Positions 1 through 21,334 of a stretch of DNA of 55,286 bases are shown here, piece by piece; the stretch's first letter is position 1, and every line of letters begins with the position of its first letter. The stretch spans positions 1-55,286 of the forward strand of contig JALUWT010000077.1 in assembly GCA_027019325.1 (NCBI GenBank), written 5' to 3'. A program made the position numbers and the translations under genes. A model generated the notes under the pieces. It saw only the letters and a program-made list of their open reading frames with translations. It was not told the DNA's origin and made no database searches. The DNA comes from Sulfurimonas sp. Lineage in GTDB: Bacteria > Campylobacterota > Campylobacteria > Campylobacterales > Sulfurimonadaceae.

Positions 1-261
1 AAGTTCTTTAAAGTTTATATCATTATCTAATAATAAGTGAGATGTTAAATTAGCACTACCAAATGTTAAATCAATAACTCTATCACAGTTAAATTTTTTT
101 AAGTCGTGAATATATCCAAAAAAAGCAGCTCTTTCTTGTGCAATGTCAGTCGGAACATAAAGTTTTAACTCATATCTTTTTGGCTCTTTACTACTATTTT
201 GATGATTAACAAATTCATCTATTTGTTTTAAAACTGCTGTCTTGGTAACTTCATTCACCAT
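1..261 (-). CDS. N-terminus of a protein with a possible SAM-methyltransferase-like motif, truncated by window edge
   Basis: Reverse-strand translation MVNEVTKTAVLKQIDEFVNHQ...RVIDLTFGSANLTSHLLLDND; start overlaps the hsdS-like stop; DLTFGSANLT resembles a methyltransferase motif I. Confidence 0.35.
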   Translation of the reverse strand, partial: MVNEVTKTAVLKQIDEFVNHQNSSKEPKRYELKLYVPTDIAQERAAFFGYIHDLKKFNCDRVIDLTFGSANLTSHLLLDNDINFKEL

Positions 262-1633
262 TAGACTGTCCTTTAAAAACTTCATTTAAAAATACTTTAT
301 CGAGCATGTTACTTTTATCTTGTACCGAATTGGCTAAATTTAACATCTTCTTTTTCCAGACATTAAATGTTCCTATGAACTCAGATAATATCTCTTGTAA
401 CTCATTCGAAGAGTAATTAGTTGTTATATCTGGGGTATTTATTGTATGTGTGCTCATATTCTCAACACTGGCAGTATTTTCTCCCCATTCATATTGAACA
501 TGATTTAAAATATTTAGCATAGAAAAATATAAATATAATGCATTGATATTATTTTCTGGAAGAATAGCTACATGATGTCTATCCATAGCAAATGGGAAAT
601 CTCTATAAAATACTTTTGTATCACCATCCTTATTAAAACTAACACAATTAATTCTTACCACATCGTCTTCATTGATAGCCTCAACATAGTATGCAATTGA
701 TTTATTCTTTACGGATCCAGTTGCAAGTGGTATATCACCTGGGTGAGATGTGTTGTATGATTTTATATAATGATTTTTGCCTTTTACAAATTTGAAATAA
801 TTTGTATCAGATAGTGATACAGAAATAAAATTAAAATCGCTACTGGTAACATTATATGATTTCAACTTAGCCCAATTATCAAACTGTTCTGAGATAAAGG
901 GATCTTTCATCTCAAAAACCTTGCTTAAAATAACTCTCGCTGTTTTACTAATATCATGTTTTAATAAAGTCATTTTGTGTGTAAGATTTTCTGTCTGAGC
1001 TTTTTGATAGTCTATAAATTCTACTATTGCTTCTTGAATCTCAAGTGAACTATAACCATCTACTGGCTCAGGAATCATTATTTTTATTTCTTTTTTGGAT
1101 TCATCATTTAGAGTCATTCCATTGTTGGTTTGAGTTCCATATTTTGGATATTCAATAATACAATTATATGCAACATATCTATTGTTAATATCTTTATTTA
1201 CAGTGAGAATATCAATTGCTTCATTACAATAAGCATGTTTATCAGAATTATAAATTTTTACCACACCAACAGTTAGTTTAAAAGATATAAGAATATCACC
1301 TTTTTTGATTGGGATTAGTTTTTCAGATTTACCTGTATTCTTTTTATCAACAGCATATCTAACTAATTCCATAGTTGTTTTTTCTTTTGTATTTGGATTG
1401 TCAATATATAAACCATCAATAGCATTCATATCAGAAACTTTAAACCAATCTATGTCACCTTCTGGATCTCTTTTTGGTGTAAACCCCATCCTTTTTATAC
1501 AAACCATCTCATCTGGATTATCTGAATAAATTCTTTTTGTTTTAAAAACAACATCATTCAAATCTAATTCAGTATATCTTCCAGTAGCTTTTTTATATTC
1601 CTCATATTTTTCAATAAGTGTAGGATTAAACAT
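251..1633 (-). CDS. hsdS: Type I restriction-modification specificity subunit (HsdS-like)
   Basis: Two TRD-like halves; follows the methylase gene with a short overlap; likely start is MFNPTLIEKYEEY. Confidence 0.7.
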   Translation of the reverse strand: MFNPTLIEKYEEYKKATGRYTELDLNDVVFKTKRIYSDNPDEMVCIKRMGFTPKRDPEGDIDWFKVSDMNAIDGLYIDNPNTKEKTTMELVRYAVDKKNTGKSEKLIPIKKGDILISFKLTVGVVKIYNSDKHAYCNEAIDILTVNKDINNRYVAYNCIIEYPKYGTQTNNGMTLNDESKKEIKIMIPEPVDGYSSLEIQEAIVEFIDYQKAQTENLTHKMTLLKHDISKTARVILSKVFEMKDPFISEQFDNWAKLKSYNVTSSDFNFISVSLSDTNYFKFVKGKNHYIKSYNTSHPGDIPLATGSVKNKSIAYYVEAINEDDVVRINCVSFNKDGDTKVFYRDFPFAMDRHHVAILPENNINALYLYFSMLNILNHVQYEWGENTASVENMSTHTINTPDITTNYSSNELQEILSEFIGTFNVWKKKMLNLANSVQDKSNMLDKVFLNEVFKGQSNGE

Positions 1634-3263
1634 GAAATATCTCCTGAACATTTTCGTATAGCTCACCCACAAGATCTTTTATTTCATTTTGCAATTGGGC
1701 TATATCTATATCTACATCTTCATTTTTAAAACCAATTTCCTTAGAAATCTCAATTCCATCACATTTGTTTCTAATTGTCTTACTAATATACTCATAATCT
1801 TTTTTAGCACTTAAATAATCTAATATTCTCTCGATGTCATCCTCAGAATAATAATGCTTCATTTTATCCTTAGAATATGGATGTGGAGAAAACAACTTAT
1901 CTTCTTTTGTATCTGCTTTTACAATTTTAATCGTCTTGTTAAAATTAGTATTTAAAAACCATAAATGAGAACTAATGTCTGTATTTGTAAACATTGCCTT
2001 TGGTTGTTCCAATACAGCTTTAACTATTCCCATATCAAATATGTGAGATCGTATTTTAGATTCACTTGATGAATCAGCTCCCGTAGATATTAATGTGCTT
2101 GAACTAATAATACAAGCAATTGCATCTTTATTGCGATTTTCTTTTTCCAGCTTCATCAAATTGATAATATGCTGCATAAATAAAAATTGTCCATCTGATT
2201 TTTTTGGTAAAACAACTTTACCTGTTTTATCATCTTTAATTACTTCAAAATTACTATTAACACTATTCATGTCTTCTACGATGATTTTATGGTCATGTTT
2301 CCAGTCAACACCAAACGGTGGATTAGCAATAATAAAGTTAAATGACTTGTCACTATTAATTTGTTTAGCAAATATAGGATTTGTTAAAGTGTTACCATAA
2401 GCGATTTGGTTTTCAATACCTTGACTTTTTCCATCAAGAGAAGTAATTTCTAAAAAGATTTTTGATAGCAACCAACTTTGACCATTATATTCTTGTCCAT
2501 ACACAGCAATTCTTTTCGCGGTTTTTTTTCTTTTTCCTGTTGGAGTTTTATTTAGGTTATTATCAAAGTAAATAGCTGATTCAATAACCATAGATCCAAC
2601 ACCACAAGTAGGATCATAGATAGCTATTTTTTCATCTTTGCGGATTGATTCTAAAGCAGATGCACAAGCTAAATGAATAATAGATTTTTGAGTAAAATGC
2701 TGACCTGTTAAAGTTCCGGATAGTTTTTTCATTCTAGCGATTGTTGTTTCATATAAATCTTTATATTTTTCCGATGGGTAATCAATAAAATTAGCTTTTT
2801 CAACATATATGTCTAATACCATTTCTAAATAACGAGGCTCTTCAAGCTCTTCAATATATTGAGATAATGTAAAGGTTTTTTTGTGATCCAAATATATCAG
2901 ACAGCTTTCTTCTACTGAGTTTTCCACACTGTCTTGTGCAGGAGTCATATAACTTGGCTGATTAAAATAAGAAAGATTAGAACCAAGATTTTTAATATCC
3001 GCAATGATATTCAAGAAAGTGTTTATTATGTTATCAGCTTCATACTCTTGATACTTGGCATCAGTAAGCCCAAATTTGTCTCTCCAGTCAAAGGTAAATT
3101 GAGTCTTCTTGTTATCAACGAGTAACTTTAATGCCATAAATGCAAGAATTCTCTGATCATAAACAGATTCATTAATACCGATTCCTCGAAGAATATCTGC
3201 ATATGCCCAATAGAAGTCACCTATCTTGTTTTCATCTTTTTTCATATCTGGTATCTTACTCAT
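1626..3263 (-). CDS. hsdM: N-6 adenine DNA methyltransferase (HsdM-like)
   Basis: Motif I region YDPTCGVGSMVIES and catalytic NPPFG (IIANPPFGVDW). Confidence 0.9.
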   Translation of the reverse strand: MSKIPDMKKDENKIGDFYWAYADILRGIGINESVYDQRILAFMALKLLVDNKKTQFTFDWRDKFGLTDAKYQEYEADNIINTFLNIIADIKNLGSNLSYFNQPSYMTPAQDSVENSVEESCLIYLDHKKTFTLSQYIEELEEPRYLEMVLDIYVEKANFIDYPSEKYKDLYETTIARMKKLSGTLTGQHFTQKSIIHLACASALESIRKDEKIAIYDPTCGVGSMVIESAIYFDNNLNKTPTGKRKKTAKRIAVYGQEYNGQSWLLSKIFLEITSLDGKSQGIENQIAYGNTLTNPIFAKQINSDKSFNFIIANPPFGVDWKHDHKIIVEDMNSVNSNFEVIKDDKTGKVVLPKKSDGQFLFMQHIINLMKLEKENRNKDAIACIISSSTLISTGADSSSESKIRSHIFDMGIVKAVLEQPKAMFTNTDISSHLWFLNTNFNKTIKIVKADTKEDKLFSPHPYSKDKMKHYYSEDDIERILDYLSAKKDYEYISKTIRNKCDGIEISKEIGFKNEDVDIDIAQLQNEIKDLVGELYENVQEIFHV

Positions 3264-3816: not shown

Positions 3817-4767
3817 ATGGCAAAGAAGATTGAAGAGATACTTCCAAAGATTTTAAGAGATTTATCTAATGGAATAGCCATATCTACTGTTGAAGTTGAG
3901 AAAAAATATGGCTTTAGTGCAAGTGGAGTTAGAAATCATCTAAGAACACTAGAGCAAAGATTTTATAAGAATTGTTTCAAATATGATGGTAGTACAAAAA
4001 AATGGGTTGCTACGGATAGAGGATTTTTAACAAGAGAACTTTTAGAACCAGAAGAGGTAATTGTTTTAAACGGTATATATCGTAATAAAGATAGATTAGG
4101 TAGCTCTTTATCAAAAACACATGAAAATATGGTTGAGAGCTATTTAAAGAGAACTAAGAGCTATATTTTTAAGCAACATATAGCAGAAGATGTAACTGAA
4201 GATATGGAACAGGTTTTTGCCATATTTAAAAGAGCGATAAGTTCCAAAAATATAGTTGAACTAGATTACCCTTCAAAAGGTGCTTTGAAAACGAGAAGAG
4301 TATTCCCATATAAAATTGTGTACATAGAATATTATTGGTATCTGATATGTTATGAAGAAAACAAGAAAATAAAATCATTTCGTTTATCTCTTATACAATC
4401 TCCTCGCATACTCGATGAAGTGTATAAATATGATTTTGAAAATGTTAATTTGAGGCTAAAGTTAGCGATGAACGCTTATGTTGATTTTGAAGAGCCCATA
4501 AATACTGTTGACATTTTAGTAGCTAATCATCTTGTAAATCACATAGAGATAGCTTCATACTTTATGGCATGGAGAAAAACAGAGTATGTTACAGAAATTA
4601 ATAAAGTAAAGTATAGAAGATTTGAAGTGAATACTACTAACCCTAACTATAATGATATTATCCCTACAATTTTAAAATATATGCCACATATGCTTGTTGA
4701 GTCTCACGATGAATTAAAAGAAGCGATTGAAGAAAGGATGACAATTTATCAAAATAGTTACAAATGA
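3817..4767 (+). CDS. capW: HTH-WYL transcriptional regulator, CapW-like CBASS regulator
   Basis: N-terminal winged HTH and WYL-like domain (VELDYPSKGALKTRRVFPYKIVYIEYYWYLICYEE); directly upstream of a CBASS operon. Confidence 0.8.
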   Translation: MAKKIEEILPKILRDLSNGIAISTVEVEKKYGFSASGVRNHLRTLEQRFYKNCFKYDGSTKKWVATDRGFLTRELLEPEEVIVLNGIYRNKDRLGSSLSKTHENMVESYLKRTKSYIFKQHIAEDVTEDMEQVFAIFKRAISSKNIVELDYPSKGALKTRRVFPYKIVYIEYYWYLICYEENKKIKSFRLSLIQSPRILDEVYKYDFENVNLRLKLAMNAYVDFEEPINTVDILVANHLVNHIEIASYFMAWRKTEYVTEINKVKYRRFEVNTTNPNYNDIIPTILKYMPHMLVESHDELKEAIEERMTIYQNSYK

Positions 4768-4782
4768 TAAATATTTTTATCG
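4765..4782. promoter_or_regulatory. Palindrome GATAAA-TATT-TTTATC between capW and the CD-NTase (candidate CapW operator)
   Basis: TGATAAATATTTTTATCG; reverse complement matches the 3755-3772 core; overlaps the capW stop codon. Confidence 0.6.
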
Positions 4783-4895
4783 TTACATACTATACAATAC
4801 ATGATAGGTTTAAAATATTAGACAAATAAACACATTTATAGAAGCAGAACTCTGTTTACTATAATTGGAAATTTTAATCTAGATGGAGGATTATA

Positions 4896-5909
4896 ATGGC
4901 AAAGTTACAAAAAGAGTTCGGAAAATTTCATGAAGAAATAAAGCTCAAGAAATTTGATGAAAATAAAGATCTTAGAGAGAAAAGAGATTTACTTTTTAAA
5001 GATCTCAGAGAGGGTCTTAAAGACAAAAACATCCCAGGTACAACTAAAAAATTAACTTTCAGGGAAATTAATCAAGGTTCTTATTCTATGAATACGGGGA
5101 TTAAGCCTCAAAACGAAGATTATGATATTGATATAGGAGCTGTATTTAATATAACTAATGATGAGTATAACTCCGCAGAGTTAAAAAAGCTTGTGAGAGA
5201 TGCGCTAAATAAAGGAAATAGAACAGTTGTTTATAATCGTCCATGTTTAACCGTTGAGTATAAAACGGAAGATTATCATGTAGATTTAGCTGTATACTCT
5301 GAAAATAATGATGATATCCATATTGCTTGGGGAAAGGAGTTTTCGAGTGAAAAAATATGGTATAAGTCTGAACCTGAAGAGCTTACAACTTGGGTGTCTG
5401 ATGTATCTACTGTTGATGATGAATCTGCACAGTTTAGACGTAGTGTAAGATATCTTAAAAAATGGAAAGAAAAACATTTTTCAGCGAGTGGAAATAATGC
5501 ACCGCCATCTATTGGATTAACAATTCAAGCAAGGAAGGCTTTTAGCAGTTATGCCGCATATGATAATAATTATGACTTAACAGCACTAATAAGAGTTGTA
5601 ACATATATTAAGCAGGAATTTTCATCAAAATACGATTCTGATTCAGAAGTGTGGAAAGAGAGTATATCTGTAGCATTACCTGTTCAACCCTATAAAAATG
5701 TTTATTATAAAATGTCTTTAACCCAGCAAGATAATTTTTATAATAAAATATGCGACTTATTAGAACTTCTTGAAGCTGTAGATGCAGAAGAGTCAGATTT
5801 TGAAGCTAGTAAACTACTACAAAAGATTTTTGGAACTGATTTTCCACTTGCAGATGATATAAGAGCTTCAGAAAAAGCTCCATATGTAACTACAGGTCAG
5901 AATGCGTGA
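4896..5909 (+). CDS. CBASS CD-NTase (cGAS/DncV-like nucleotidyltransferase)
   Basis: GSYSMNTGIKPQNEDYDIDIGAVF plus VDLAVY nucleotidyltransferase motifs; followed by Cap2/Cap3/SAVED genes. Confidence 0.9.
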   Translation: MAKLQKEFGKFHEEIKLKKFDENKDLREKRDLLFKDLREGLKDKNIPGTTKKLTFREINQGSYSMNTGIKPQNEDYDIDIGAVFNITNDEYNSAELKKLVRDALNKGNRTVVYNRPCLTVEYKTEDYHVDLAVYSENNDDIHIAWGKEFSSEKIWYKSEPEELTTWVSDVSTVDDESAQFRRSVRYLKKWKEKHFSASGNNAPPSIGLTIQARKAFSSYAAYDNNYDLTALIRVVTYIKQEFSSKYDSDSEVWKESISVALPVQPYKNVYYKMSLTQQDNFYNKICDLLELLEAVDAEESDFEASKLLQKIFGTDFPLADDIRASEKAPYVTTGQNA

Positions 5910-7636
5910 CAGAGGATGAGATTGATACTTTAGTTTCTAAAGTATCATTATCAATAGTATTATCATATAAAAAGTCAGAAGAAAATAAGAGATATAATTT
6001 TGCACTTAAAGGTAGAAAAAGAGTCTGGAATATTTCATTGGATTTTCCCAATGACTTTCCTAAAAGTTTCCCAATAGTAAAGCTATTAGATATGTCTGAA
6101 GTTGGAAAAGTGGCACATGTTAATTCTGTTTGTACAGTTTGTATAGAAGAAAGTGACAGTGTACTTATTAATCATTATGAAGCAGTAAAAGTTCTAGAAC
6201 ACTATCTAGAAGATATTAAAACTTCTTTGGATAATTTTAGCTTAAGAGCATATCAGTATCAATTAATGGATGAATATGAAGGGTATTTTAACGCTAGTTT
6301 AGTAGATAGTGTAAATTCATTTTACAAAGCCACTGAAACATTAGAGTATGTATATTTGAAAGTGACACAGGTTTTAAAGAATAAAGATATATTTAATAGG
6401 GCACAAAGATATGATTATCCTGCCCTTATTTTAGATATGGATAATCTAGCCCCAAAAAACTATAGTAATGTGAAAAATATTAATGCAACAACTATAAAAG
6501 CTATTCATATACCATTGTTTAAACAAATTCTACCACCATCAAATGCAGAAAAAATATCATTGAGTTATTTGTATAATATTATCAAAAATATCACTTCAGA
6601 GAATCGAAATATTTTAGATATATTTTTAACAAAAGAAAAAGAAAAAAGACAATTTTTTGTTCTATTAAGCTTACCAAGAACAGAGAATGAAAGAACACAA
6701 TTATTATTAGAGTTTAGTTCAAAAAATAAATTAAAGCATCCTTTAACGGAACCCTCCGATGATTGGTTTATTGATTTATATTTTATAAACAGGCATAATC
6801 AAGAGTACTTACTTGAGAGGGGCGGTGCTGAAAATAGTTTACAAAATAAACATGTGACCATAGTAGGCTGTGGTTCAGTAGGTGGAGAAATTGCATATAT
6901 GTTGGCTAAAGCAGGTATTGGTAATTTAACATTGGTTGATAATGATAAATTACATCCTGACAATATTTACAGACATAGACTTGGTGGAAATATGATTAAT
7001 TATCTACCTAATAAAAAAACTGGAAAAGTAAAGCAATATAGTAAAACATTAGTATTAAAAAATTCATTAGAAAAAGATTTACCGCATATCAATGTTGATA
7101 TCAGATCAAAAAAGTTTGAGCAAGTATTAGATGAAGATTTTGTAAATGAATCAGACATGATAATAGTCGCTATAGGTTCTCCTATGCCAAGTTTTACAAT
7201 AAATGAAGAACTAAAAAAATTAGGAATTAATAAAGTAATTTTTTGTTGGAATGAACCAGCAAGTTATGGTGGTCATATAGTGCAACTGAACCTTCAGGAA
7301 TGTTGCTTACAGTGTCTTTACACATCAGACGATACTGGAGAGTTAGGAATATCTAAATTAGCTTTAGTAAAACCATCTCCAAAGATTTCAAAAAACTTAA
7401 CTGGGTGTGGAGGTGTATTTACACCTTTCTCATATTTAGATTCTTCCCAAACTGCTTTATTGGCATCTAAACAATGTGTTCGTGCCTTACAGACAGAGCT
7501 GGACTCCACTGCAATTAGCTGGAAAGATGAGGGAAATGGTATGTTAGAAACAACACAAAGATATGAAGATATTAATACCGTTGAGATGTCTTCTATCCAA
7601 TGTTCAGTAAAATGCAAGGTATGTAATAATGGATAA
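5906..7636 (+). CDS. cap2: CBASS Cap2, E2-E1 fusion ubiquitin-transferase-like enzyme
   Basis: N-terminal E2-like region with VCTVCIEE; ThiF/E1 fold VTIVGCGSVGGEIAYMLAKAGIGNLTLVDNDKLHPDNIYRH; E1-type cysteine TGCGGVFTPF; GTG start with 4-bp overlap. Confidence 0.92.
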   Translation: MTEDEIDTLVSKVSLSIVLSYKKSEENKRYNFALKGRKRVWNISLDFPNDFPKSFPIVKLLDMSEVGKVAHVNSVCTVCIEESDSVLINHYEAVKVLEHYLEDIKTSLDNFSLRAYQYQLMDEYEGYFNASLVDSVNSFYKATETLEYVYLKVTQVLKNKDIFNRAQRYDYPALILDMDNLAPKNYSNVKNINATTIKAIHIPLFKQILPPSNAEKISLSYLYNIIKNITSENRNILDIFLTKEKEKRQFFVLLSLPRTENERTQLLLEFSSKNKLKHPLTEPSDDWFIDLYFINRHNQEYLLERGGAENSLQNKHVTIVGCGSVGGEIAYMLAKAGIGNLTLVDNDKLHPDNIYRHRLGGNMINYLPNKKTGKVKQYSKTLVLKNSLEKDLPHINVDIRSKKFEQVLDEDFVNESDMIIVAIGSPMPSFTINEELKKLGINKVIFCWNEPASYGGHIVQLNLQECCLQCLYTSDDTGELGISKLALVKPSPKISKNLTGCGGVFTPFSYLDSSQTALLASKQCVRALQTELDSTAISWKDEGNGMLETTQRYEDINTVEMSSIQCSVKCKVCNNG

Positions 7637-8120
7637 CTCATGGGAAATAGAAATAAAAGGCATTGGACTACTTAAGATATCAGGTGAGCTTATTGAACAA
7701 TTAAAAGCATATCAGCAGCTCTCCACAGGTCAACTAGAATCTGGTGGTGTTCTTATAGGCAGTTTTTTGAATTCTGGCGGATACCTGATTATTAACAAAT
7801 TTACTCCACCACAAAATAATGATAAGCAGGGTAGATATCTTTTTTACCGCTCAAATGAGCATAATAAAGTTGTTAAAATAATTTGGGAAAAATCAAGTCA
7901 CATTTCAACATATGTAGGGTTATGGCATACACACGCTGAACCAATTCCTAGCTATTCTTCTCAAGATAAAAAAGATTGGAATGATACTCTTAATCAATCT
8001 GAATATGAGGGGAATAAATTATTTTTTTTTATCGTAGGACAAAGACATATAAGATGTTGGATGGGAATAAAAAAGATGTTTAGAAATAAAATAGAATTAA
8101 TAGGAGAAATACATGTTTGA
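7629..8120 (+). CDS. cap3: CBASS Cap3, JAB/JAMM isopeptidase
   Basis: JAMM motif: upstream ESGGVLIG glutamate and GLWHTHAEPIPSYSSQDKKDW. Confidence 0.92.
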   Translation: MDNSWEIEIKGIGLLKISGELIEQLKAYQQLSTGQLESGGVLIGSFLNSGGYLIINKFTPPQNNDKQGRYLFYRSNEHNKVVKIIWEKSSHISTYVGLWHTHAEPIPSYSSQDKKDWNDTLNQSEYEGNKLFFFIVGQRHIRCWMGIKKMFRNKIELIGEIHV

Positions 8121-9183
8121 GAAATGTTTAGCACTACTTAGGTATATCTTTGATACTTATATTAGATTTTGTAAAAGTACTTATCCAATGATTAAGTATG
8201 GGGTTAGGCTCTTATTGGGTACTCCATTGTTAGTGGGAGGAATTAATTTATTGCTATATGTGCCTTTGCCAGAAGATGTAGATTTTAAACTAATGGATAT
8301 ATCATATGGAGAAGTATCATATATCTCAATAGGAACAACAATTATAACAACTATATTAGGGGCAATACTCATAGCAGTAGGCTTAATAATGGCTAAACAA
8401 AAGGCAAGAAAAACTTCAAAAGTTTTAATTACATCTATGTTGGAAGAATCTGCTGAATTCCCAGATGATATATTAACAGATATAGAAAAAAAAGATGCTC
8501 GTGAAATGGTAGTCTTAGGATTAGTAGAAACAGAGAACTATGTTAACCAGTCAATAAAGATGTTTAATGCTGAACAAGAAGTGAATATATATGATCGTTT
8601 TATATTGAATCATGATTGTAAAAAGGTTCTATTGGGAGGTAGAGCTAGAGTGCCTTTTTTGGTTGCTTATGGCAGTAGATTTAGAAATATATCTGCAAAA
8701 ATAGTGTATTTCGACCAATTACATCAAAATCAAAAGTGGGAACTGTTAGATGATGTGAATGAAGATATATCAATTAATTATGAAGATATAGAAAGCATAG
8801 AAGCGAATAGAAATGGTGATATAGGTTTGGCAATAAGCTTCACAAGTCAAATATTAGATAGTCAACTCCCTCCATCCATTAAAAATCATACATTAATGAT
8901 TTCATCAAGTGTAGAACCTACAAGAAATTTAATAAAGAATCAGGATAATCTGCAAAAAATATCACATGAAATAAAATCTATTATAGATAAGCTATCTGTT
9001 AAAATAAACTGTAAATATATTCATATGTTCCTTTCAGTTCAAACATCTGTAGCATTAGAAATTGGTAGAAATTATCAAGAGGGAATGCATAAAAACTTTA
9101 TTGTGCATAATTTTGATGCAGTAGAGGGAAAATATGGTTGGAAAATTAATATTTGTAAAAATAAAATAGAAATACATGATTAA
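8113..9183 (+). CDS. cap14: CBASS effector: two transmembrane helices plus SAVED domain (Cap14-like)
   Basis: Two N-terminal hydrophobic helices then SAVED-like C-terminus KYIHMFLSVQTSVALEIGRNYQ...FIVHNFD; overlaps cap3. Confidence 0.8.
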   Translation: MFEKCLALLRYIFDTYIRFCKSTYPMIKYGVRLLLGTPLLVGGINLLLYVPLPEDVDFKLMDISYGEVSYISIGTTIITTILGAILIAVGLIMAKQKARKTSKVLITSMLEESAEFPDDILTDIEKKDAREMVVLGLVETENYVNQSIKMFNAEQEVNIYDRFILNHDCKKVLLGGRARVPFLVAYGSRFRNISAKIVYFDQLHQNQKWELLDDVNEDISINYEDIESIEANRNGDIGLAISFTSQILDSQLPPSIKNHTLMISSSVEPTRNLIKNQDNLQKISHEIKSIIDKLSVKINCKYIHMFLSVQTSVALEIGRNYQEGMHKNFIVHNFDAVEGKYGWKINICKNKIEIHD

Positions 9184-9200: not shown

Positions 9201-10199
9201 ATGTCACTTATTCCATTTGCATATTCAACTCCATTAAAAAAACTTGTCGATGTAAGTGATGTGCCAAGTGGATTGTCTTGCATGTGTTTATGTCCATCAT
9301 GTAAAATGAAACTTCTTGCCAGAAAGGGTGAAGTAAATGAACATCATTTTAGTCATTTTGATAAAGCTATCAATGATTGTAATTATTCTTACTGGGTCTC
9401 TGTTCGAGATATGGCAAAACAAATTCTTGAAGCTTCTAAGTATATTAAAGTAAAGTTAAATAGTATATCCACTTTACAGGTACCACCATACTCCACTCAA
9501 TCAAATAGAATAGAACTTTTTCATATAAAAAAAGTACAAGGAAGTGACTATGTAGCAACTACATCTATTGGAAGAATTAAAATTTATCTAAGTACTCCAG
9601 AGCACACCAAGTTCTCACAAATAATAAAACAAGAAAGCTTTACGGATAATTTAGTTCTCAATATTGACCTATCTAAATATCAAAATTCCAAAAAAAGTGC
9701 TTTGGAAATACTTATTATAAATGACACAAAATGTAAAACTTTCTTATTACCTCGTCATCGATTAAGAGGACAAGAAGAGTCGTATATAGATGAGGATGAT
9801 GAGCTAGAGGAAAAAGTAAGTAATCCTACCCCTACTAAAGTAAAACAGAGTGATGAGGATGAGATATTACAAAAACTGTATCTTGATAGAAGAAATATTC
9901 AAGCAGGAATGCTTAAAACGATAAGGGAGATGAAGCCATTTTATTACGAGAGTGTTTTTGAATGCATGCATATGAATCCTTCTAAAGATTTTGAGGTTGT
10001 TCGCAGTAATGGTATTATTGACTATGTATCCTACAAGGAAAGTTTTTTTGCTTCAACAAAAATAGGTATTTACAATATAGTGTATGTCTATGATGAGGAT
10101 GAGTTTATTAAAGTGGCTAACACGACAAATAGTGATAACATATGTTATGCAATGGACAGATATCTCAATGAGTTGAATGAGGCAAATTTAGTATTTTAG
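9201..10199 (+). CDS. CoiA-like zinc-motif protein, function unknown, at end of the CBASS operon
   Basis: N-terminal LSCMCLCPSCKMKLLARKGEVNEHHFSHF resembles CoiA-family CPxC...HHFSH; 17 nt after cap14. Confidence 0.6.
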   Translation: MSLIPFAYSTPLKKLVDVSDVPSGLSCMCLCPSCKMKLLARKGEVNEHHFSHFDKAINDCNYSYWVSVRDMAKQILEASKYIKVKLNSISTLQVPPYSTQSNRIELFHIKKVQGSDYVATTSIGRIKIYLSTPEHTKFSQIIKQESFTDNLVLNIDLSKYQNSKKSALEILIINDTKCKTFLLPRHRLRGQEESYIDEDDELEEKVSNPTPTKVKQSDEDEILQKLYLDRRNIQAGMLKTIREMKPFYYESVFECMHMNPSKDFEVVRSNGIIDYVSYKESFFASTKIGIYNIVYVYDEDEFIKVANTTNSDNICYAMDRYLNELNEANLVF

Positions 10200-11669
10200 A
10201 TTGGTATCCTTTTCCTTAAGATATAAACTTGGAAAATAAAAAACTTCCCTACAAAGCCTAATATAACTATCACCATGAGCATCTTTTTTGACATTTCTCA
10301 AATCAATATACACATTATCCGGAACATGAATATTATGCAAATATCCTATCAGTATTTTAAAAAAATATTGCTGATGTTCTTGTTGATATTGAGGGTTATT
10401 CAGTATCTTTATCAGTCGCTGCTGAAGTAGTTCTTTGCTCTCATGTGCTTTTTCTAGTTTTGCTCGTGGGATGATGCTTATTTTTAGTTCGTATGAAAAT
10501 TGTTTAGATAAAAAGTTAGTAAACTCTGTTAATGAACTTCTTTGACCTGGATATATCCATAAATAGCCTTCCAAGATATACATATTTGGAGTTTCATTTT
10601 TAAAGTAATCACAATATTGAAGAAATTTTACCGCTGGAGTTAAAGCTAATCGTATAGATCTAAATGTAATCTTTTTCGATTTGAATTTTTGTAAAAGTTT
10701 TTCATAATAACTTTGTAAAAGGTTGGACCTATAATCATCTTTTTCAAAAGCATTGAGGTATTTCTGAATAAGGTTTAAATTTGCATATTTATCTTTAACA
10801 GCCCCATCAATTTTAAGTACACCAGCACTCTCAAAATAAAGATGGACTAATAGGTTTTTGCCTTGTGTAGCATGAGGGAAAGTTGCGAGTAACTCTTCAT
10901 AATTAGGTAATCTATCTAATTGAACACTTAACTTATCAATTTGAAAAAAATACTTTTGATAGTTTTGTATATGTGTTGATGTAAATAATACCCCTCGTCG
11001 CAATTTCAACCAATTTGAAAAATCAATAAAATGTTGATATGTGTGTTGTGACATTGCTTTTGCTATGAATGTGGCTTTTTTAATAAGAGCATTCTTGTAG
11101 TGACAACCTGAGCATATATGTCCAAATCCAGCAGAAAACTTCTCTCCACACATATTACAAATTCTAGTAATCTCGATAGAACATATTTTACAGAGTGGTC
11201 TCTTATCTAATTGATATGAAAAGGGTATTCTTCTATAGCCACAACCATTGCATGTTGGTAAAGTTTTATCATAGCACTTTTGACATAATAGTTTTTGTGA
11301 ACCATCAATTAGAGTACGGTTAGATGTCGGTGCATCATTTTGCTTACAAATAGAGCACTTTCTATGCTGTGTGTAATATTTAGCACATGAATTACAGACT
11401 GAACCATACTTAGTAATCTTACCATTAGTATATTGAGTTTTTTTACATCTAATGCAAGGCTTATCTTTTACTTGACAAAACTTACAGATAGGAGGTCTTT
11501 GAGAATAGTAAATTTTTCTTCGCCTGTTGCACTTGATACATATTTTATAATGAAATAGATAGTGATAACATTTTTTACAATAGTGTTTTCCTTGATATCT
11601 ATAATCCCAATCTGTTAAAATAAGACTACAATAATCACAACTCGTATTTTCAGGTAAACTATATCTCAT
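10188..11669 (-). CDS. tnsF: Zinc-finger-rich TnsF-like target selector (inactivated tyrosine-recombinase-like)
   Basis: Many CxxC pairs in the N-terminal half; core-binding-like region after residue ~290; no recognisable HxxR...Y catalytic set; overlaps tniQ start; element is in comM. Confidence 0.7.
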   Translation of the reverse strand: MRYSLPENTSCDYCSLILTDWDYRYQGKHYCKKCYHYLFHYKICIKCNRRRKIYYSQRPPICKFCQVKDKPCIRCKKTQYTNGKITKYGSVCNSCAKYYTQHRKCSICKQNDAPTSNRTLIDGSQKLLCQKCYDKTLPTCNGCGYRRIPFSYQLDKRPLCKICSIEITRICNMCGEKFSAGFGHICSGCHYKNALIKKATFIAKAMSQHTYQHFIDFSNWLKLRRGVLFTSTHIQNYQKYFFQIDKLSVQLDRLPNYEELLATFPHATQGKNLLVHLYFESAGVLKIDGAVKDKYANLNLIQKYLNAFEKDDYRSNLLQSYYEKLLQKFKSKKITFRSIRLALTPAVKFLQYCDYFKNETPNMYILEGYLWIYPGQRSSLTEFTNFLSKQFSYELKISIIPRAKLEKAHESKELLQQRLIKILNNPQYQQEHQQYFFKILIGYLHNIHVPDNVYIDLRNVKKDAHGDSYIRLCREVFYFPSLYLKEKDTNLKY

Positions 11670-12733
11670 ATCAACTCTAAAAGTTCACTATAGAGACGAT
11701 TAACTTCATCTTTAGCATTTGGCTTTATGGCATATTGCTTTGGATTTTCAATTTTTGAACTATCGGTTATTTTTAAAAATTTAGATAGATACAATATTGT
11801 TGGAGACATGGAAGCAGGCTTTGATGAAAAAACTTTGTTTGTTGTTTCTAGCTGCTGCAAAAGTTTCTTAATAGTCTCTATATCGGCTTGCAGAAATTGA
11901 TAAGTCAGCTTCAATAAAAACTCTCTATCATCTATGCTCATCTTCTCAAAGACATGCATTATTTTACTTTCTTCCATATAGTGAATATCGAGATCGAGTG
12001 TCTCAAAGAAAAGATGATATTTCTTTAGTTTGTATATTTGTTGAAAAAATGGGATTATGCTTCTAATGGTCATAAACAGGTCTTGTAGCGATTGTGTGTG
12101 CAATGCTGGAAAAGATGTTATTTGTGTATTAAAAATGGCTTTATTGAGTATCTCTTGAAACTTAAGAGCTTTCCCATCGGCGGGTGTAGTTTCTGCACCT
12201 CTTAAGTCAAATCCGCATGAGCTACATAGGTATATTTTTGGTGTGTCATACTTTAAAAGTTGAGGAGAAAATATAATCCTACAGTTTGGGCATTTATTTA
12301 GAAGTTTGATCTTGTGAACAGGACACCCTATGTTCCATGCTAATCGCCATTGTCTTTTTAAATATGGAGTTGAATCACTAAGACATTTAGAACAAAAGTG
12401 CATTCCATTTGTTTGAGATAAACCTCTCTTACCTCTAGGAATTAAAAAATACCATAAACCTAACGGATTCAAAGGCTTATCAATAATTTTTTGGAGATAA
12501 GGCTCTAATGTTAAATTTTTAATCTCTTCTGGAGTAAGTGCTGTCATTTTTGCTAAAGAATAAGCTTGTTGTTTTGGTAAGTGTTTGTCTAAATCTTTGT
12601 TCCAAGCTTTATACTCTTCCCATAAAGCGATATAAAAGCTTCGTGGGTCACTTCCATTTGCAATTGAACTTCTTATGAGCCAAGAGTTAAGCGACTCATC
12701 ACTAAAAACTTTTGGCTCAATTGAAAGTTTCAT
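11666..12733 (-). CDS. tniQ: TniQ-family transposition protein
   Basis: DESLNSWLIRSS start, zinc motifs CSKCL...NIGCPVHKIKLLNKCPNCR...CSSCGFDLRG; follows tniB. Confidence 0.9.
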   Translation of the reverse strand: MKLSIEPKVFSDESLNSWLIRSSIANGSDPRSFYIALWEEYKAWNKDLDKHLPKQQAYSLAKMTALTPEEIKNLTLEPYLQKIIDKPLNPLGLWYFLIPRGKRGLSQTNGMHFCSKCLSDSTPYLKRQWRLAWNIGCPVHKIKLLNKCPNCRIIFSPQLLKYDTPKIYLCSSCGFDLRGAETTPADGKALKFQEILNKAIFNTQITSFPALHTQSLQDLFMTIRSIIPFFQQIYKLKKYHLFFETLDLDIHYMEESKIMHVFEKMSIDDREFLLKLTYQFLQADIETIKKLLQQLETTNKVFSSKPASMSPTILYLSKFLKITDSSKIENPKQYAIKPNAKDEVNRLYSELLELI

Positions 12734-12734
12734 T

Positions 12735-13649
12735 TTAAATAGGTATCTCTCTAGGTGTTAGAGAGTTGGTCGGTTTAATCCATTTAAACTTATTGATAAT
12801 TTCAAGAGTTATTTCCTCTGTTTCATTTTTAATGGCAAAAGAGGCACACTCTATTAAAAGTCTATGCAAGTTACCTAAATTACCTTGGGAAATCATATGT
12901 AGAAGCGTGGCTTTCTCTTTAGATGCAAGATTAGAAGGTTTTTTAAGTGGTAATCTTTTTTCAAATGCTTGCAGGAGTACTCTAAAATCTTTATTGAGTT
13001 CCCACTTTGATAATTTAATCAAGTCAAATCTGCTACTAAGTTGTGGGTCAGAGGTTAAAATTAACGAAGCCTCTCTTAGTCCAACACCTACGATAGGTAT
13101 CATAAGTTTTGTGCCAATATTTTTAAGTGCATCCATCACATTGCGTTGCTGTTTAGAAGTACCTCTTAAAAAATGGTGTATCTCATCAATTATAAGTATC
13201 TTCACATTGCACTCTTGCATCTGGTGAAAAACTTGATGTCGCAGTTTTACAAGAGTATCTCCTGGATTAAATGGCGACCAAAAGGATTCTAATATAGAAG
13301 TATATAAATCTTTTACATCGGCATTATCAGAGGCTAGTGCTAAAATAACAGGTCTAACAATTACACTCATCTCGTTCTCATCTTCAATACCATAACTGTG
13401 ATGTTTTTTCTCAAATGAAGAGATTATTGAAGTCTTACCAATATTAGACTCTCCAATAATTAAAAGATTCTGCATTCTAGGTTTTTTTGGTCTATCCATT
13501 AGTTGATTAAGCAAGCTGTGAATCTCTTTTATTTTCGGATATTCAATCAAAATATCTTTATGCATATATCGTATTCTATCTTTTGCATCCAATAAAACGA
13601 TATCTTGACACTGCTCGTTTAGATGTTTATACACTATTTCCATTACCAA
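12735..13649 (-). CDS. tniB: TniB/TnsC AAA+ ATPase
   Basis: Walker A GESNIGKTS, Walker B VKILIIDEIHHFLRG. Confidence 0.93.
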   Translation of the reverse strand: MVMEIVYKHLNEQCQDIVLLDAKDRIRYMHKDILIEYPKIKEIHSLLNQLMDRPKKPRMQNLLIIGESNIGKTSIISSFEKKHHSYGIEDENEMSVIVRPVILALASDNADVKDLYTSILESFWSPFNPGDTLVKLRHQVFHQMQECNVKILIIDEIHHFLRGTSKQQRNVMDALKNIGTKLMIPIVGVGLREASLILTSDPQLSSRFDLIKLSKWELNKDFRVLLQAFEKRLPLKKPSNLASKEKATLLHMISQGNLGNLHRLLIECASFAIKNETEEITLEIINKFKWIKPTNSLTPREIPI

Positions 13650-15535
13650 TCCTCTGCTATATCTGAAACATCTTCATCCCAAAAATCATCATCTTGAACT
13701 TTTGGTACTATCTCTTTTGGTGGGGTCTGCTGAACCATCTCTTTATCTTTATTTTTGAGTCTCTGTTTTGCACGTCTTGCTTTTTTGCTTTTTTTCGATG
13801 CATCTTCTATCTGTCTATTTAGCTCTTCGTGCGCTTCTAGTATTTCAGCATTATTGATTTGTCTTGAACCAGACTCTCGTAGATGAGCTTTAATGGACTC
13901 CAATTCCCATAGAGTCATATCTGGCATTGATTGGTCTGCTGCTGGAATTTTAAAGTACTCTTGAGTTTCATCATTATAAAACCAAATAAATTTTATGTTC
14001 CGTGGATCTCTTTTAAAAATAAACCGCTTTTTCTTTCCATCATCATCGAGCATATTTATTTTTGAACGTAATAGATGGTCATAATAATTTATACCATCTA
14101 TATTAACACCATTCTTTTGAATAGTTCTTTTAAAGATTGGTAAAAAATCAATAGTTACACTTAATGGGTCTGTAGGTTTTGGCATTAATCCAACTGGTGC
14201 ATCTTCACCAAATACACCATCTTCCCAAAGTTGTTCTGGAGATAGATTGATTCCTGTATGTTTTCTCTTATGGTATATTTTTGTAATGAAAGTCACTAGC
14301 CATTTCTCAAATTCACTAAATGTCATTGATGAATGTTTATCTGAATCATACTCTTGGCGTTTTTGTATATTTGAAAATGTAGTACCTGGTATTTCATGAA
14401 CTGCATTCATAAGAGTGCCTATTACTCTTTCAATATGCCCTCCAAAGTTAGATCTTCCAACGGGACGAAATTCGATATTTATTCCATGAGCTAATCCCGC
14501 AGCTTTAATAGCCTCTGCTCTAAAATCTGCACCATTATCGACATGGATAGTCTCCGGAAAACCCCAAACATCCCAATTAGAATCAATATCTAGTTCTAAA
14601 AGGAGTTTGTCTTTTGGAAGTACCACATTTGTAATACACATAGCAACAGAAGTAACACTCGGAGCACTAAGCGATAGATAATATCCAACAATCATTCGAC
14701 TATAGATATCAATCGCTACCGTTATCCAAGGTCTTCCTATTGGTTCTCTGTGTTCATCATCAACTAAGATTAAATCTACAGGAGTATGGTCAATCTCAAT
14801 AAGTTGCATAGGATAATCAGATTCAAACTTTCCAGGAACAGGCTCAAATTTAGTTCTTGCCATAGAGCGATTGCCTTGCTTCTTAAGTACCTCATATTCT
14901 GAGAGTTTGTGAATCCTATTTCTGATTGTATTTTTTCCCGGTGCAACAATCTCACGGTTTTTGCATTCAATGTTTATCTTGCGAATTACTGCTTGAATAG
15001 ATGGTTTTTGTTTAGAAAGATAGTAGGTGCTAATAATATTTTGCATAATCTCTTCCGTTGCAAAATCTAGTCTAGTCTCCCCTTTCTTCCTTCCCGATGG
15101 TTTTGGTAGTAAACCGAGAAGAGTGCCAGTTGATTGGTATCGTCTTAGCCATCTATAGAGTGTCGTATAGTGAATATTAATTTTTTTTGCATGCTCTTCA
15201 ATCTCTTTACGTGAGATATTATCAGATAATAGAGGTTCTATAGCTAGATACTTTTTTTGTATCTCTTGAAATTCACTATCTGTGTATTCGCCTATATCAT
15301 TAAAGATTGCTAGCTTGATATCTTTACCATTTGAAATAGGCTTTATATCGCTTATTCGTAGTCTCTTTGCTCTTTTTGTTTTTATATCAATACCAACAAC
15401 TTCACTAAAGTCAATGACACTAGAGATTTTATACACTTCGCTCTGATACTCAACATACTCGTTTTCTTTAATTTGAATACTGCTCCTATTGAGCTTTATT
15501 GATTGTACTTCTTCTTTATGCATCATCCCCTCCAA
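13643..15535 (-). CDS. tniA: TniA/TnsB DDE transposase
   Basis: Mu-type integrase core IEIDHTPVDLIL...VAIDIYSRMIVGYY...IHVDNGADF...GHIERVIGTL. Confidence 0.95.
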   Translation of the reverse strand: MEGMMHKEEVQSIKLNRSSIQIKENEYVEYQSEVYKISSVIDFSEVVGIDIKTKRAKRLRISDIKPISNGKDIKLAIFNDIGEYTDSEFQEIQKKYLAIEPLLSDNISRKEIEEHAKKINIHYTTLYRWLRRYQSTGTLLGLLPKPSGRKKGETRLDFATEEIMQNIISTYYLSKQKPSIQAVIRKINIECKNREIVAPGKNTIRNRIHKLSEYEVLKKQGNRSMARTKFEPVPGKFESDYPMQLIEIDHTPVDLILVDDEHREPIGRPWITVAIDIYSRMIVGYYLSLSAPSVTSVAMCITNVVLPKDKLLLELDIDSNWDVWGFPETIHVDNGADFRAEAIKAAGLAHGINIEFRPVGRSNFGGHIERVIGTLMNAVHEIPGTTFSNIQKRQEYDSDKHSSMTFSEFEKWLVTFITKIYHKRKHTGINLSPEQLWEDGVFGEDAPVGLMPKPTDPLSVTIDFLPIFKRTIQKNGVNIDGINYYDHLLRSKINMLDDDGKKKRFIFKRDPRNIKFIWFYNDETQEYFKIPAADQSMPDMTLWELESIKAHLRESGSRQINNAEILEAHEELNRQIEDASKKSKKARRAKQRLKNKDKEMVQQTPPKEIVPKVQDDDFWDEDVSDIAEDW

Positions 15536-16217
15536 ATGATAAATTATTGTTTACCCACACTATAGTCTGCTTATCAAGTATCTTACTAAAATCACATAGT
15601 AGTCTTTTATTTGCAAGTAGATTCCAAATGTGTCCTAAGCCCATGGATTTTTGTTCTTTAGTCACAAATAGATATTCAATAGCAGCTTCAACAGTTAGTG
15701 AACCAGAACTATTTATATAGGCTAGAATATTGGATTCGTCTTCTTCTTTATATGTAAGCCTTTTATACCTTTTAAGAAAAAGAATATTTTTTAAGTAAGG
15801 GGTTCTAATTCTACTCTCATCATATATTTTAAAAATCATATCATTTGCATTGGCGTATTGCATTGCAACTTTAAATTTAGGTTTAAGTTCTGCAAAATGC
15901 TTTTGTAATTTTTCTCTAGGTTTTACTTCGATTAGCAATGGTTTTCTTGGTCGCTTTAGAAGTGAAGCCTCTGCCTCTTTAAAATCAACTAGAAAATCGG
16001 GAGTATAAGTTACAGCTCTTCCGTTGTGGTTTACATATTCGATAGTAAGTGGTTGTTCAATAACATCATTAACACTATCATTAAACTCTAACAGTGTTAG
16101 TAAATCTCTTTCAAGTGTTGATTCAAAGGCGATGCTTTTTTGTTTTCGAAATGCAAAGTGACCAGATACACTACCGTATGTATAACCAATTTTTCTTTTT
16201 TTCATAGATATCTTCAT
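15516..16217 (-). CDS. tnsA: TnsA endonuclease subunit of heteromeric transposase
   Basis: FESTLERDLLTLLEF...YTPDFLVDF...PLLIEVKPREKL matches TnsA E/D/ExK architecture; adjacent to tniA and the element end. Confidence 0.92.
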   Translation of the reverse strand: MKISMKKRKIGYTYGSVSGHFAFRKQKSIAFESTLERDLLTLLEFNDSVNDVIEQPLTIEYVNHNGRAVTYTPDFLVDFKEAEASLLKRPRKPLLIEVKPREKLQKHFAELKPKFKVAMQYANANDMIFKIYDESRIRTPYLKNILFLKRYKRLTYKEEDESNILAYINSSGSLTVEAAIEYLFVTKEQKSMGLGHIWNLLANKRLLCDFSKILDKQTIVWVNNNLSFGGDDA

Positions 16218-16240
16218 TTGTCACCTCTTAATTGGCAATG

Positions 16241-16374
16241 TTGTAGCTTGTTTAGTTGGATATGTTCTATGTTGTAGCATGGTTTATAGGTATTTGTAGC
16301 AATGTTAAGTGGAATAATCATCTATAAAGTCCTTATTTAGTGTTATATTGTAGCAGGTTTTAGTGGAAATGTCA
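16241..16374. mobile_element. Right end of the Tn7-like/Tn6022-like transposon with four TnsB-type repeats, ending TGTCA
   Basis: TTGTAGC repeats at 16241, 16272, 16294 and 16348 with related tails; the last runs to TGTCA at 16370-16374, then comM coding frame. Confidence 0.85.
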
Positions 16375-17015
16375 GCGGGAGTCATAAAGCCCGGATTGGT
16401 GAAGTTGGATTAGCGAACAACGGCATACTCTTCTTTGATGAGCTGCCATACTTTTCCAAATCTGTATTAGAGTCTCTGCGTGAGCCTATGCAGGAGAACA
16501 AAATACACATCTCACGTGTCAATGCAAAAGTGGAGTATCCGGCAAAATTTCTTTTTATCGGAGCGATGAACCCTTGTCCCTGTGGAAATCTTTTGGATGC
16601 GCATAAGGAGTGCCGCTGTAATGAACTTGAAATTCAGAGGTATAAAAACAGACTCTCTGAACCTTTTTTAGACAGGATTGACATATCGGTTGTGATGCAA
16701 AATGTAAGGGCTGAAGATAAGCCGAGTTTCTCTTCCAAAGAGTTGCATAAAAAGGTTGTTGAGGCAAATATTTTTAGACAAAAAAGAGGGCAGAAAAATT
16801 TTAATGCTAAGATGGCTGATAGTGAATTAGATGCGTATTGTGTGATGAGTGCAGCAGCAAATGAAACTTTGGCAATGGCCATAGAGCGCTTTCGCCTCTC
16901 TTTTAGAAGTATAAAAAAAGTGCAGAAAGTCTCTCGAACGATTGCAGATTTGGCAAGTTCTGAAGTGATTGAAAAAGAGCACCTGCTCGAGGCACTCTCA
17001 TATAGAAGACGTTAG
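16375..17015 (+). pseudogene. comM: 3' fragment of comM (YifB-family Mg-chelatase-like ATPase) interrupted by the transposon
   Basis: In-frame GSHKARIGEVGLANNGILFFDELPYFSKSVLESLREPMQENKIHISR...AMNPCPCGN, starting immediately after the TGTCA end. Confidence 0.93.
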
Positions 17016-20698: not shown

Positions 20699-21334
20699 AT
20701 GGTGATTGCATATATAAGACCAGATAAGAATTTTGCACCTGCACATGAACAATTGCAGTTGATAAACTCTTATGCTATGACGAACAATCTTGTTATTGAT
20801 GATGAATTTGTTGATTACACATCCCAAAACAAGCGTCTCCAAGAGAGAAGCGAAGTAACAAAATACTTTCAGTCAAAAATCAGAACGACACTGCTTATTT
20901 ATGATGTCTGGGTATTGACTACAAATATGGAAGATTTGATTCAGATGTTTTCCTGTCTGCTTAAAAATGAATTTAATGTTCATTTTATTAAGCAATCTGT
21001 TATAATGACACAACAGAGCAGTGTGATGCTTGTATTGGGATTGATGGATCAGCTTCGTCAAAGAGTTCAGAATGAATCCAAAAGGGTTATTGGTCGACCA
21101 AAGGGGAGTCGTTCGAATTCAAAATTTGATGTATATATAAATGATATTATTGCATTTATAAAAGATGGTAAAAGTGTGAGCGAAATGGCAAGGGTTTTAA
21201 ATGTGAGCAGAAGTTCACTCAAAGACTACATAGAGTCACGTGAACTGAAGCAGGTCGCATTTGGATCACTGCTGCCTAAAGCGCCAAAAGATGCAGAAGA
21301 ACAGGTAATCAATACAATTACCTGTCCAAATTAA
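20699..21334 (+). CDS. Serine-recombinase/resolvase-like protein with C-terminal HTH, possibly a repurposed regulator
   Basis: Resolvase-like N-terminus MVIAYIRPDKNFAPAHEQLQLINSYA and C-terminal IGRPKGSRS...DGKSVSEMARVLNVSRSSLKDYI; YxRVS serine motif not conserved. Confidence 0.7.
   Translation: MVIAYIRPDKNFAPAHEQLQLINSYAMTNNLVIDDEFVDYTSQNKRLQERSEVTKYFQSKIRTTLLIYDVWVLTTNMEDLIQMFSCLLKNEFNVHFIKQSVIMTQQSSVMLVLGLMDQLRQRVQNESKRVIGRPKGSRSNSKFDVYINDIIAFIKDGKSVSEMARVLNVSRSSLKDYIESRELKQVAFGSLLPKAPKDAEEQVINTITCPN

Follow-up and report, generated by a model that had tools for sequence, protein, structure and literature searches.

The window, the whole 55,286-nucleotide stretch of a Sulfurimonas sp. contig (JALUWT010000077.1), carries an operon of Tn7-type transposition genes, a transposon end and part of comM. 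The main features, in contig order, are as follows.

251 to 3263, minus strand: cargo at the contig edge, type I restriction specificity and methyltransferase subunits
3817 to 9183, plus strand: cargo, a WYL regulator and then a type II CBASS (cyclase, E1-E2, JAB, 2TM-SAVED effector)
10188 to 11669, minus strand: tnsF, 493 aa, with 12 CxxC pairs (zinc fingers, aa 11-190), CB1-like helices (aa ~187-281), CB2-like helices (aa ~289-391) and a partial catalytic domain (aa ~412-479), the last three placed from the AlphaFold model
11666 to 12733, minus strand: tniQ, short, 355 aa (Pfam TniQ, E 1e-21)
12735 to 13649, minus strand: tniB, a tnsC-type AAA+ ATPase (Pfam TniB, E 5e-60)
13643 to 15535, minus strand: tniA, a tnsB-type DDE transposase (Pfam rve and Mu-transpos_C)
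15516 to 16217, minus strand: tnsA endonuclease (Pfam Tn7_TnsA N and C)
16238 to 16374, no strand: transposon end, with four TTGTAGC repeats as putative TnsB sites (16238-16265, 16272-16292, 16294-16314, 16345-16372) and a terminal TGTCA at 16370-16374
16375 to 16379: GCGGG, the expected 5-bp target duplication, with its other copy beyond the contig
16375 to 17015, plus strand: 3' part of comM (yifB, Mg-chelatase-like AAA+)

Read leftwards from comM, the gene order is tnsA, tniA, tniB, tniQ, tnsF. Both the order and the comM insertion proposed in an earlier note made from the sequence alone are confirmed. The junction lies at 16374/16375, and the codons for the Walker B motif of ComM (ILFFDEL) start 46 bp after GCGGG. 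The contig starts within the cargo, and for this reason the 5' half of comM was not found in the assembly of this genome; the duplication in the window copy is therefore expected rather than proven. Other contigs of the same genome gave two ChlI-domain matches. TniA is up to 73-74% identical to that of other elements, and TniQ has a C-terminal motif, PxxKxEVxxLxxEL, common to its relatives. Further along, in the chromosome of the host, a neighbour of the methionine synthase gene (20699-21334, plus strand) encodes a protein with a resolvase-type N-terminal domain.

The coordinates given earlier for tnsF stood, and the strand was corrected to minus. The gene is a full-length open reading frame whose start overlaps the tniQ stop. 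Its other end is overlapped by a convergent gene on the plus strand (9201-10199), whose 332-aa product weakly matches the N-terminal part of CoiA. The zinc-finger array described previously is present, with 12 CxxC pairs instead of about ten, all of them within residues 1-190, and 26 cysteines in the whole protein. In 10,000 shuffles of the complete TnsF sequence the mean number of such pairs was 1.3 and the maximum 6. Pfam and PDB sequence searches gave zinc-finger-like matches only, the PDB sequence profile and Foldseek matches to the N-terminal region being LIM/GATA-like, and neither these searches nor NCBIfam detected a recombinase domain.

An AlphaFold model built on an alignment of 19 sequences was confident (pLDDT 87) and comprised the zinc fingers, two helical domains at about 187-281 and 289-391, which agree with the core-binding-like helical region anticipated earlier, and a small alpha/beta end with a small beta-hairpin. 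Foldseek with the full model matched mainly LIM zinc fingers, with no significant tyrosine-recombinase match, and for that reason the C-terminal half was modelled separately (pLDDT 90). Two chains of the integron integrase 2a3v then ranked first (E 0.32 and 0.59), the better with a probability of 0.54, which is not significant alone. The structural check suggested in the earlier note delivered a confident model and, for the C-terminal half, a tyrosine recombinase as top match, at an E value short of significance. A similarly weak DALI score, 3.9, has been given for TnsF against XerH (PMC10293859).

Homology pointed to the identity of the protein. A tblastn search of plasmids led to the Tn7-like element of A. 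baumannii pA85-3, an AbaR4/Tn6022 derivative. The protein encoded after tniQ there is 24.7% identical to the window protein, with 97% of the query covered (E 2e-36). The gene formerly called orf3 or tniE in such elements was renamed TnsF by Faure et al. 2023 (PMC10293859), and the Tn6022 protein has 498 aa, of which residues 1-199 hold the zinc fingers (PMC10293859). Tn6022-type TnsF of Acinetobacter, including AjTn6022, resembles the window protein in length (~481-498 against 493 aa), in its two helical domains and partial catalytic domain, and in its place after a short tniQ at a comM site beside Walker B. It differs in sequence (~25% identity), host phylum and cargo, and no tnsE, expected on the opposite strand in the Tn6022 family, was found in the part of the window element on the contig (no TnsE_C match; the contig ends within the element). 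In the alignment with Acinetobacter TnsF all 12 CxxC pairs are in register with nearly equal spacing, so the array is of standard size, and the idea of an unusually large one had to be dropped. Given the full-length homology to the pA85-3 protein, the operon position and the insertion at the same comM site, we regard the window gene as tnsF, and its element as a Tn7-like transposon of the Tn6022 family that has entered the comM of a Sulfurimonas-like bacterium, with a probability of roughly 0.93. The earlier proposal of a TnsF from a different phylum, here Campylobacterota, is upheld.

The same role, sequence-specific selection of a chromosomal site, is played in Tn7 by TnsD. TnsD is a TniQ protein with a long DNA-binding tail, whereas the window element has a short TniQ and a separate TnsF.

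Relatives were sought in genome contigs. The single TnsF protein as query returned none, whereas alignment A1 as query returned 19 loci. Within Campylobacterota matches occurred in nine of the 398 sampled genomes, two of them weak (E ~8e-4); the counts were 7/228 in the family of the window genome, 5/104 in an Arcobacter-type family and 4/176 in another, with genomes overlapping between these counts. Members of the same genus with matches were, where named, Sulfurimonas MAGs. Other loci came from Gallionella, Rhodoferax, an uncultured betaproteobacterium, Ectothiorhodospira, Marinobacter, Aeromonas, Acinetobacter and Methylacidimicrobium, and the viral contigs scanned yielded none. A sibling, 86% identical, was found in a Campylobacterales MAG (L042 = G625) on a contig which carries the comM/left-end junction: comM reads ...TTTGGTGGAGG, and the left end follows with TGTCATTTCC.

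The position of tnsF directly after tniQ is conserved in the relatives, and the comM site of the window is that of eight proteobacterial or verrucomicrobial relatives. With the Campylobacterota included, relatives with full-length TnsF at this site span beta- and gammaproteobacteria and Verrucomicrobiota. Among relatives with both junctions, G172 (GGGGA), G348 (GCGGC), G426 (CAGAT) and G342 (CCTTG) have the 5-bp duplication on both sides, and in each of them the comM frame is open again once one of the copies is taken out; in G597 GTGGA is seen by inspection on both sides. The TnsF encoded at L039 (G452, ~1854) is nearly the same as the one in G172, and there the flank on the tnsA side is not comM; comM is thus not the sole target of such elements.

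The length of TnsF and the position in comM vary together. Thirteen elements with full-length TnsF and a readable junction (the window, G172, G348, G279, G597, L051-L055 and L057-L059) occupy the GGG/S site before Walker B. In five others, whose TnsF is short, the insertion lies ~203-238 bp farther downstream in comM, at one of two other conserved segments, NPCPC or ECRC; distances were counted by hand from joined comM frames. Three of the five, G426 (8 CxxC pairs), G549 (4) and G615 (0), lie in or beside ECRC, ~237-238 bp downstream, the position of G615 being taken solely from the start of its comM match. G342 (6 pairs) lies in NPCPC, 203 bp downstream. G358 (6 pairs) has its left end in NPCPC and is counted as complex, because a second tnsA and a remnant reach up to ECRC. 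On its contig C44 (L031, L032, L062, L063) two tnsA genes, together with a fragment of tniA, lie within a single comM, apparently a tandem or composite of two elements with the left end in NPCPC and the right end in ECRC. The N-truncated genes are those at L027/L043 (G426), L040 (G549), L080 (G615), L033 (G342), L031 (G358) and L041 (G520), the last (4 pairs) left out of the site comparison because its contig has no junction. A start-site or frameshift artefact was considered for the short proteins and rejected in G426, G520 and G615: tnsF begins there right at the tniQ stop or overlapping it, so that an extended N-terminus would not fit.

There were no exceptions to the association among the 13 full-length and five short elements. 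A naive exact test gives ~1e-4, a value that ignores kinship, and since the trees show about two independent short-TnsF groups the link is put forward as a hypothesis. At rather less than even odds, the N-terminal fingers may set the insertion site, 12 CxxC pairs placing the element before Walker B and shortened arrays placing it in NPCPC or ECRC. Short TnsF at other comM sites was not described in the open literature searched.

The shortened genes also give some substance to a different reading, in which TnsF no longer picks the target, TniQ or TnsE does so, and tnsF is a decaying passenger. In relatives tnsF is reduced to as little as 196 aa without a zinc finger (G615) and the elements are still in comM; moreover, TnsE_C matches lie within the elements of G597 (over the cut-off) and of G342 and G348 (both below it). 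The window gene does not look like one in decay, however: it is full-length and open, overlaps tniQ, keeps all 12 CxxC pairs and has an 86% identical sibling, and TnsF is essential in AjTn6022 (PMC10293859). We consider decay improbable, and prefer a TnsF that still selects the target.

The relationship to inactivated tyrosine recombinases proposed earlier is supported mainly through longer homologues on two plasmids, in Variovorax (L082, 605 aa) and Rhodococcus pNAPH (L084, 702 aa). Both adjoin tyrosine recombinase (YRec) and small HTH genes, the Tsy arrangement. The window protein matches the Variovorax homologue with E 2e-21, and Tsy-type TnsF-like proteins at 99.6% when profiles are compared (hhalign); zinc-finger array, helical domains and the start of the catalytic domain all align. 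The match stops at window residue 481, Variovorax residue 499. Beyond this point the Variovorax protein continues for ~100 residues; among them, near residue 582, is a KYW tyrosine that can be compared with Y584 in the Zoogloea Tsy TnsF (PMC10293859). As the match ends ahead of that tyrosine, the window TnsF is without the catalytic tail: its chain ends ~100 aa short of the tyrosine of its Tsy homologues and the R/HxxR/Y set is absent, in agreement with the earlier note, where none had been visible. Foldseek alone is consistent with the recombinase relationship and not decisive. The homology, the operon, the transposon end, the insertion site and the loss of the catalytic tail are all direct observations on the window element.

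The same homology might be taken to mean that the window protein is a catalytically active Tsy-type recombinase and not a Tn7 target selector, a reading which the missing tail refutes and to which we attach almost no weight. A Tsy transposon is defined by a YRec, an HTH protein and a TnsF-like protein with its tyrosine, and by the absence of Tn7 genes; the window element falls outside that definition, its gene being part of a tnsABC-tniQ operon with neither the YRec nor the HTH gene. It is just as improbable that the gene is a zinc-finger transcription regulator or unrelated cargo beside the transposition operon, as the purely zinc-finger-like Pfam and PDB sequence matches could suggest, given the conserved place right after tniQ and the full-length TnsF homology.

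The window TniA is 70-73% identical to those of G426 and G549, whereas its TniQ is only 34-35% identical to theirs; the TniQ proteins of G426 and G549 are 41% identical to each other. A TniQ tree in which the window is held with G426 and G549, its nearest kin in TniA, is rejected (p-AU 0.002). The TniA tree places the window among the short-TnsF group with support 98/94, but does not reject the alternative (p-AU 0.07), and the exchange of tniQ and tnsF is therefore kept as a suggestion: these trees hint that the pair moves between lineages as a unit.

In the AjTn6022 element of A. johnsonii TnsF is needed for transposition, and it binds both the Walker B segment of comM and TniQ (PMC10293859). 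If DNA binding, TniQ contact and order of recruitment are carried over from that system (PMC10293859), the window TnsF would use its zinc fingers and its two core-binding-like helical domains to bind the Walker B region of comM, and the C-terminal helix of the short TniQ would be the docking site for the truncated catalytic domain of TnsF. TniQ would then hand the target on to the ATPase TniB (TnsC), which would recruit TnsA and TniA (TnsB) carrying the transposon ends. The 5-bp duplication produced by insertion would lie 46 bp before the codons for Walker B.

TnsF-guided insertion at the Walker B site of comM thus extends to Campylobacterota, in an element whose zinc-finger layout, ends and site are the same as in Acinetobacter. 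Its relatives form a natural deletion series of TnsF at different comM positions, and which part of TnsF reads the target is therefore directly testable. Should the fingers indeed set the site, the series would be a natural one of retargeting through the removal of zinc-finger modules.
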